Assembly (NCBI GenBank): GCA_903927025.1
Contig: CAIYLG010000053.1
Span: forward strand, 1 to 64,000
Length of the DNA stretch: 64,000 nt
Reading direction: 5' to 3'
DNA from: an uncultured Armatimonadota bacterium
GTDB taxonomy: Bacteria; Armatimonadota; Fimbriimonadia; Fimbriimonadales; Fimbriimonadaceae
The notes under the pieces were generated by a model. The model ran no database searches, was not told where the DNA came from, and saw only the letters and a list, made by a program, of their open reading frames with translations. This document shows positions 36,498-37,964 of the stretch, piece after piece (the first letter of the stretch is position 1; the number at the start of each line of letters is the position of its first letter). Both the position numbers and the translations under genes were made by a program.

Positions 36498-37964
36498 ATG
36501 GGTAGGTTGCCTGGGGATCGGATATTTGGTGTAGAAACGGAATTTGGGTGCCTTGTCGCCGACCCGAGCTATGGAAGTCCCGAAGCTGCGGTTGAAACGA
36601 TCAAGGATTGCCTCTTTCATGAGCTCAAACTTGGTGCCATTGACCTCCATGCACGTGACGATGTCTTTGAACCTGCGCAATCAGGTGGATTCCTGCTTAA
36701 CGGCGCACGGATGTACATCGACGCAGTGGGCTCACATCTCGAATACGCAACTGCAGAATGCCGAGAGTTGAAGGATCTGGTCGCAAACGACCGAGCTGGA
36801 CAGCGCCAAATTGTGCGCGCCATTAAAGAGCTGGGCCTCGAGGACATCGTCAGCGTCTACAACAACTCGGTAGACCACTTTGGTGGGCATACATTCGGCT
36901 GCCACGAGAACTACCTCGTAAGGGGCGATGACGACTTCCTGAATGTGTCCATTCACACGCTGTATCCCTTTCTGGTCACCCGACAAATCTTTGCTGGAGT
37001 CGGACGTGTTGGAGGCCACATCTTGACCACCAACACGGCTAAGCCCTCGTATCAGGACGTGATGGACCACCCTGTCGACTACATTTGGGTATCTCAGGTG
37101 TACGGAGTGGTTCCAGACGACTCCGTGAAGTTTCAGCTCAGTCAACGAGCAGATCATATCCTCAAGACCATCGCCACTCGAGTCCGCTTCAACCGAGCCC
37201 TTATCAACCCCAAGTGGGAGCATTTCTACTCACATGAGGGGATGACAAGACTGCATTTTCTGTTCGGCGAGTCCAACCAGAACGAATTCGCCTACGCCCT
37301 TAAGGTGGGAACTACACTGCTGGTGCTTCGACTCGTCGAGGACGATGCCGTGCCGCCCCGGCTGATGATGGCCAGCCCGATCCATGCGCTCAGGGACGTC
37401 AGCCGAGACGAAACCTACCGTTGGATGGTCACTCTGGCAGACGGCACCGAGATCAGCGCCATTGATCTCCAAAGGGAATACCTGGCGTTGGCAGAGTGCT
37501 ACCGAGGCGAATCAATTCAGACCGATTGGACGCTCAATGAATGGGCGCGCATCTTAGATGACCTCGAGAAGGATCCTCTTGCGTGTGGTGACCGCGTGGA
37601 CTGGGTAGCCAAGCTCAAAATCGTTGAGGAATACCGTGCCGAGGAGGGCTTAGATTGGGATGACGACGCCCTGCACTCCGTTGATTTGGAATATCACAAC
37701 ATCGATCCCGATGCAAGCCTCTTTCATGCCTGGCAAGGAATGGGCAACACGAAGCGGATTCTCAACGACATCGACATCATTTCAGCGATGACCGATCCGC
37801 CCCAAAACACCCGAGCAAAGGGCAGGGCCCAGCTTGTAGAAAAGGTCATTGGCCGAAAAGGGCCTAGATTCTATCTATTCGATTGGAACGGCGTCGCCCT
37901 AGACAGGCATACCTACGTAGAAATGCTGGATCCGTTTGAAACCTACGAGAACGCGACGGATTAA
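36498..37964 (+). CDS. PafA/Dop-family Pup ligase or deamidase homologue
   Basis: 488 residues from ATG 36498. The family belongs to the carboxylate-amine ligase (glutamine synthetase-like) fold and either attaches Pup-type modifiers to lysines (PafA) or deamidates and removes them (Dop). Conserved motifs are FGVETEFG (Glu13 and Glu15, nucleotide-metal site), NGARMYIDAVGSHLEYATAE with Asp75 in the place of the catalytic base, and VYNNSVDHFGGHTFGCHENY. Length and motifs indicate an active enzyme. The ETEFG and NGAR forms look more like PafA; the Dop assignment cannot be excluded. No Pup/UBact-like small gene with a GGE/GGQ end or proteasome subunit is in the window. Its stop overlaps that of ispH in TTAA. 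Confidence 0.9.
   Translation: MGRLPGDRIFGVETEFGCLVADPSYGSPEAAVETIKDCLFHELKLGAIDLHARDDVFEPAQSGGFLLNGARMYIDAVGSHLEYATAECRELKDLVANDRAGQRQIVRAIKELGLEDIVSVYNNSVDHFGGHTFGCHENYLVRGDDDFLNVSIHTLYPFLVTRQIFAGVGRVGGHILTTNTAKPSYQDVMDHPVDYIWVSQVYGVVPDDSVKFQLSQRADHILKTIATRVRFNRALINPKWEHFYSHEGMTRLHFLFGESNQNEFAYALKVGTTLLVLRLVEDDAVPPRLMMASPIHALRDVSRDETYRWMVTLADGTEISAIDLQREYLALAECYRGESIQTDWTLNEWARILDDLEKDPLACGDRVDWVAKLKIVEEYRAEEGLDWDDDALHSVDLEYHNIDPDASLFHAWQGMGNTKRILNDIDIISAMTDPPQNTRAKGRAQLVEKVIGRKGPRFYLFDWNGVALDRHTYVEMLDPFETYENATD

Follow-up and report, generated by a model that had tools for sequence, protein, structure and literature searches.

The gene and its surroundings

The window examined here, a stretch of 64,000 nucleotides from an uncultured member of the Fimbriimonadaceae (Armatimonadota), carries an uninterrupted frame of 488 residues with zero internal stops, whose ATG at 36498 is directly preceded by GGAG, a plausible ribosome-binding site (Table 1). 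The source genome measures 5.25 Mb and is 98.4% complete. Residues 8–465 of the product match the Pfam family PF03136 (Pup_ligase) with 413 bits against a curated cut-off of 25 bits (E 2e-123), and cover positions 1–439 of the 441 in the profile; this E-value and the near-complete span exclude chance, and the first-pass annotation of a full-length PafA/Dop homologue is borne out. Among the NCBIfam models, TIGR03686 (PafA) ranks best with 293.7 bits, followed by TIGR03688 (Dop) with 281.9 bits, both being far under equivalog cut-offs that are tuned to actinobacteria (551.3 for TIGR03686). Since the TIGR03686 cut-off is missed, we file the protein as a UBact-type PafA rather than as an actinobacterial Pup ligase.

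The flanks consist of housekeeping genes, accD/xseB/accA on the left and ispH on the right, with accA, accD and ispH confirmed by Pfam; as the same annotation had stated, no Pup/UBact, proteasome or ARC gene adjoins. A search for promoter- or terminator-like sites near the gene found none, fewer than in shuffled sequences. The best relatives of the protein come from Armatimonadota/Fimbriimonadaceae metagenome-assembled genomes and share at most 83% identity with it, dS among the window-type orthologues is saturated, and the viral contigs searched held no relative. One armatimonadotal pafA (L032, JADZEW010000001.1; 69% identity) sits on a 424-kb contig titled Methanoregulaceae archaeon, a name that looks wrong.

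Table 1 Features of the predicted ligase gene and of the tag locus on contig C2 (residue numbers refer to the 488-aa product)
Feature	Position	Strand	Remarks
pafA-type gene, probable UBact ligase	36498..37964	+	488 aa; ATG with GGAG upstream; last 4 bases overlap the opposite-strand ispH gene
E13-T-E15, Mg/ATP-binding ExE of the GS/PafA cradle	36534..36542	+	Invariant in 54 orthologues, and in the PafA/Dop alignment wherever covered
NGAR-MYI-D75-A-VGSH, with catalytic Asp75 and, after it, the VGS typical of PafA (missing in Dop)	36699..36737	+	54 orthologues and alignment; signature from PMC7947786, Table 1
GCHEN, residues 134–138	36897..36911	+	Invariant in 54 orthologues
Lineage-specific insert, residues 174–211	37017..37130	+	35–38 aa in 54/54 orthologues; without counterpart in aligned Dop and actinobacterial PafA
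VRFNR-A-x-x-NPKW, residues 229–240	37182..37217	+	Alignment; V229-R230 and K239 replace TT and the essential NTRDEPH Arg of actinobacterial PafA
dop, second PF03136 gene (contig C2)	L003: 9687-11162	-	Profile search
UBact gene (contig C2)	L003: 9508-9690	-	PF20513 and NF033388
prcB (contig C2)	L003: 8750-9511	-	Bacterial beta model, 125 bits

The three motifs that the annotation had named are all present and invariant in 54 orthologues, NG-x-R...D75 included, and the nucleotide-binding Glu residues and the Asp75 base, which it had singled out, are unchanged in close homologues. Its broader statement that all visible catalytic motifs are in place does not extend to INTRDEPH, which is replaced by INPKW at residues 236–240. 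The active-site Arg/His residues of PF03136 enzymes are otherwise kept, the one exception being R227 of Dop (R193 of PafA), which is K239 here.

Pathway partners in the source genome

The source genome holds exactly two PF03136 genes, of which the second lies on contig C2 in a tight run, dop-UBact-prcB (locus L003), with all three genes on the minus strand. The tag protein has 60 residues and a C terminus reading ...DQAKKYRQRSGE, so that it ends RSGE, and it scores far above the cut-offs of both tag models (PF20513, 76.5 bits against 27.8; NF033388, 78.1 against 35). The gene for PrcA is solitary, on contig C62, its product scoring 76 bits with the bacterial alpha model; C2 also carries, 200 kb from dop, a gene for an ATPase of the ARC/Mpa type (433 bits). 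The C2 paralogue itself is scored by NCBIfam at 365.8 bits for Dop and 280.1 for PafA. The Pup- or UBact-type tagging pathway anticipated from the ligase gene is therefore present on other contigs, with a tag in the 50–90 residue range beside the second PafA/Dop paralogue, both proteasome subunits and ARC/Mpa; of the suggestion that the partner lies elsewhere or is divergent, the former proved right and the latter did not, and the tag is UBact rather than Pup.

Distribution and operon history

Among 205 armatimonadotal genomes, each at least 90% complete, PF03136 occurs in 141 and UBact in 137, and every one of the UBact genomes (137/137) carries PF03136. The four PF03136-only genomes comprise two that are highly fragmented (G127, G029) and two whose PF03136 is of a divergent kind (G160, G189). 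UBact, PrcA and ARC were each sought in 20 listed PF03136-negative genomes and each found in 0/20, and PrcB matches there were none or at most 33 bits. The PrcB model also matches proteasome-free controls such as E. coli and B. subtilis, and we take the weak matches in the PF03136-negative genomes and in the controls to be HslV. The joint pattern recurs within the family, where two reduced 1.5-Mb genomes (G098, G099) are missing PF03136, UBact, PrcB, PrcA and ARC together. Nearly every genome has one Dop-type and one PafA-type gene.

The divergent genes belong to loci of another kind, which in G160 and G189 occur without UBact or PrcA. Such a PF03136 pair outside the UBact system is found at L189:850-9995 (G035:C18). 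In that run a ThiF-like E1 is followed by small uncharacterized genes, a protein of 101 aa that ends GAGG, a weak match to JAB, an AAA ATPase resembling ARC and bearing proteasomal OB domains, and the PF03136 pair, one member of which has a weak TPR-like match. Similar genes lie at L188 (G160:C39), L190 (G033:C582), L191 (G041:C14) and L192 (G189:C13), the last with a weak YukD match. The arrangement has the look of a cross between a ubiquitin-like E1/JAB operon and enzymes akin to PafA/Dop, and a limited literature search found no description of it.

In armatimonadotal families other than this one, a single operon, ARC-dop-UBact-prcB-prcA-pafA, holds all six genes; in G129 and G130, which belong to the same order, ARC has moved out of it and dop-UBact-prcB-prcA-pafA is retained. 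With the product of the operon pafA the window protein shares 55% identity, as against 36% with that of the operon dop (locus L150). A dop gene lies within the fetched flank in only 1 of the 59 closest-relative loci (L010-L068), the two PF03136 genes stand 2.2 Mb apart in a single-contig genome of the same genus (G057), and the neighbourhood accD-pafA-ispH is common to several near relatives. Judged by orthology, the window gene is the displaced pafA of the operon, formerly its last gene and now alone in Fimbriimonadaceae. A report of 2008 had PafA homologues next to Pup in the genomes of every lineage known at the time (PMC2588565), and it is from this rule that Fimbriimonadaceae depart, with pafA standing apart from the tag gene. 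At L153:2065-2355 (G043:C71) we observed a third PafA copy, a C-terminal fragment (46% identity over 98 aa) near an intact pafA.

Fold, active site and choice between ligase and deconjugase

An AlphaFold2 model built with 54 orthologues (pLDDT 87.9, pTM 0.91) has Dop (VIA Z 43) and PafA (39) as its nearest relatives in a structure search, the PafA/Dop matches spanning Z 35–43, with a YbdK-like protein next. The superfamily fold is shared, and the rank of YbdK directly after PafA/Dop might suggest a glutamine-synthetase- or glutamate-cysteine-ligase-like enzyme acting on a small-molecule substrate. However, Z falls to 21 at YbdK, the PF03136 match spans the full length, and co-occurrence with UBact, PrcA and ARC is strict; Dop and PafA being clearly at the top argues against a plain glutamine-synthetase-like enzyme, and we give this reading practically no weight. 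YbdK and the glutamate-cysteine ligases have the carboxylate-amine ligase superfamily fold in common with the window protein, but at about 8–13% identity and Z of about 21 or less. The grouping with glutamine synthetase-like enzymes that the first-pass annotation had envisaged as the adverse outcome was not what we found, the protein grouping with PafA/Dop instead.

The choice between PafA and Dop can be approached through the positions listed by Hecht et al. 2020 as separating the two enzymes, whose activity is set by the Dop-loop and the alpha-loop (PMC7947786). Over 20 such positions the window protein is PafA-like at 11 and Dop-like at 0, the PafA-like residues including F65, V77 G78 S79, A84 T85 A86, H220 and D462, the last being the counterpart of the late Asp D439 in Cg. 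The Dop-loop is absent from the aligned region (residues 55–90). In the alpha-loop only H220 is kept of the PafA residues H-W-E-G-SSA-R-S, with VRFNR instead, and the segment is modelled with moderate pLDDT as a loop, as in Dop, and not as a helix, as in PafA. Our own AlphaFold model of the C2 Dop, used as a control, reaches a pLDDT of only about 45 in this region, and because the control is so poor there the comparison decides nothing on the shape of the alpha-loop.

Could the window protein be a second Dop-like deconjugase or a regulator, with ligation left to the C2 paralogue? In fold and in pairwise sequence comparison it stands slightly closer to the solved Dop structures than to those of PafA, its alpha-loop is not helical in the model, and the NTR Arg and the TT of actinobacterial PafA are altered. 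Against this, it is the C2 paralogue that has the Dop-loop, lacks the VGS insertion, favours the Dop model by 86 bits and adjoins the tag gene as dop does in the operon, whereas the window type has VGS-ATA and D462 as in PafA, no Dop-loop, and orthology to the last operon gene. We regard a deconjugase as very improbable. Since nearly every genome pairs one Dop-type with one PafA-type gene and the tag ends GE, the window gene is to be read as the ligase; its product is very probably the PafA of the UBact conjugation-proteasome pathway, and by homology to actinobacterial PafA it would ligate UBact to lysine in an ATP-dependent manner.

The replaced loop is the most unusual feature of the active site. 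VRFNR..NPKW is invariant in all 54 window-type orthologues, and NTRDEPH is kept in 26/26 armatimonadotal Dops, in all aligned Dops and in all aligned actinobacterial PafA. For PafA of M. smegmatis, R193A has been found inactive and T183A/T184A are slow (PMC7947786); by the alignment and the numbering of that paper, R193 is the Arg of NTR and corresponds to Lys239. Lys239 may do the job of the essential Arg, or the active-site loop may have been re-wired. The lineage-specific insert is modelled with low confidence, two blocks within residues 181–200 having pLDDT of 65 and 50. It is possible, if rather doubtful, that the UBact ligases of Armatimonadota work as a mechanistic variant of PafA in which the alpha-loop, which decides between ligase and hydrolase, and the Arg have been replaced and the neighbouring conserved 174–211 loop serves in target or tag recognition, perhaps as a ligase-side counterpart of the Dop-loop.

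Origin of the ligase

The armatimonadotal window-type proteins form a single clade (100/100). A wider tree, which includes three actinobacterial PafA/Dop pairs and leaves out the long-branched C2 Dop, unites PafA of both phyla against Dop of both phyla (87/81). The PafA/Dop grouping that the earlier annotation assumed is upheld, and its finer placement with PafA is that of this wider tree; the smaller set gave another topology, and the AU test rejects neither. An adjacent actinobacterial-type dop and pafA on an unverified faecal scaffold entered as 'Bacteriophage sp.' (L194, MT835496.1) served solely as an outgroup pair in the tree; the scaffold is probably mislabelled bacterial DNA.

That smaller, first tree placed actinobacterial PafA with actinobacterial Dop (84/98), and a clade joining the two armatimonadotal groups survives the AU test (p-AU 0.24). 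Together with the differing alpha-loop motifs, this would be consistent with an origin of armatimonadotal UBact ligases from Dop independently of actinobacterial PafA, their likeness to PafA being convergent. Such a reading bears on origin rather than on what the protein does now, and does not conflict with the PafA assignment. We nonetheless consider it unlikely, given the union of all PafA in the wider tree, a PafA-only clade that is not rejected even in the first set (p-AU 0.40), the VGS insertion common to armatimonadotal and actinobacterial PafA, and the published conservation of gene order across pupylating organisms (PMC3511204). Independent ligase origins as drawn from the first tree were set aside, the branches being long and the AU test giving them no preference over a single PafA clade. 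An ancient PafA/Dop duplication is favoured by these comparisons, though not proven.

Discussion

We infer catalytic activity, partner choice and degradation as follows. By homology to actinobacterial PafA, the gamma-carboxylate of the C-terminal Glu of UBact would be phosphorylated by ATP held in the ExE cradle, after which a target lysine activated by Asp75 would attack the acyl phosphate to form an isopeptide bond. As UBact here already ends GE, no deamidation should be needed, and the Dop-type paralogue on C2 would act only in tag removal. ARC would then capture the tagged protein, which the 20S proteasome of PrcA and PrcB would degrade.

Among related Armatimonadota (L120-L149) the tag C terminus alternates between GE and GQ, 16 of the 24 that were read ending GE and 8 GQ, so that only some of these genomes should depend on Dop for deamidation. 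At L186 (G006:C4:765500-771500), two neighbouring UBact-like frames, the second divergent and both ending RSGQ, lie next to one dop.

The UBact system is one of Gram-negative bacteria, reportedly described by Lehmann et al. in 2017 (doi 10.1016/j.bbrc.2017.01.037), a study cited by both PMC12441361 and PMC12751074. The source genome resembles that system in a tag that passes the curated models of Pfam and NCBIfam, a pair of PF03136 enzymes, PrcA/PrcB and ARC, and armatimonadotal relatives have the single operon with pafA last. It differs in that pafA stands apart from the dop-UBact-prcB remnant, as in most sampled family members, and in that prcA and ARC are also unlinked; linkage of pafA to the tag is usual in such systems and not required. 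Compared with actinobacterial PafA (C. glutamicum 4b0t/4bjr, M. smegmatis), the window protein has the same fold, ExE, Asp with VGS-EYATA, catalytic His/Arg and lack of a Dop-loop, but is about 32% identical to it and differs in an additional Ala behind Asp75, the 35–38-aa insert and VRFNR..NPKW for TTRSR..NTRDEPH. With Dop (Acidothermus 4b0r, mycobacterial 9cku) it shares the fold, the active-site residues and its best structural Z, and is set apart by the missing Dop-loop, the VGS insertion, the PafA-like H220 and D462, and a separate Dop orthologue on C2.

Proteasome subunits of armatimonadetes have already been described (PMC5666114), and PafA/Dop homologues are noted as sporadic in Armatimonadetes (PMC7947786). 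The window protein is a ligase of the UBact type and so belongs to a known kind, which earlier work has reported from this phylum; what is new in it are lineage-specific details. An isolated ligase gene is here tied to a complete UBact-proteasome pathway whose genes are present or absent jointly across the phylum, and operon context misses the ligase in Fimbriimonadaceae. The family also offers a clean natural experiment on the requirements of a pupylation ligase, the cradle being kept while the alpha-loop and the essential Arg are swapped, and the Dop sister keeping NTRDEPH.
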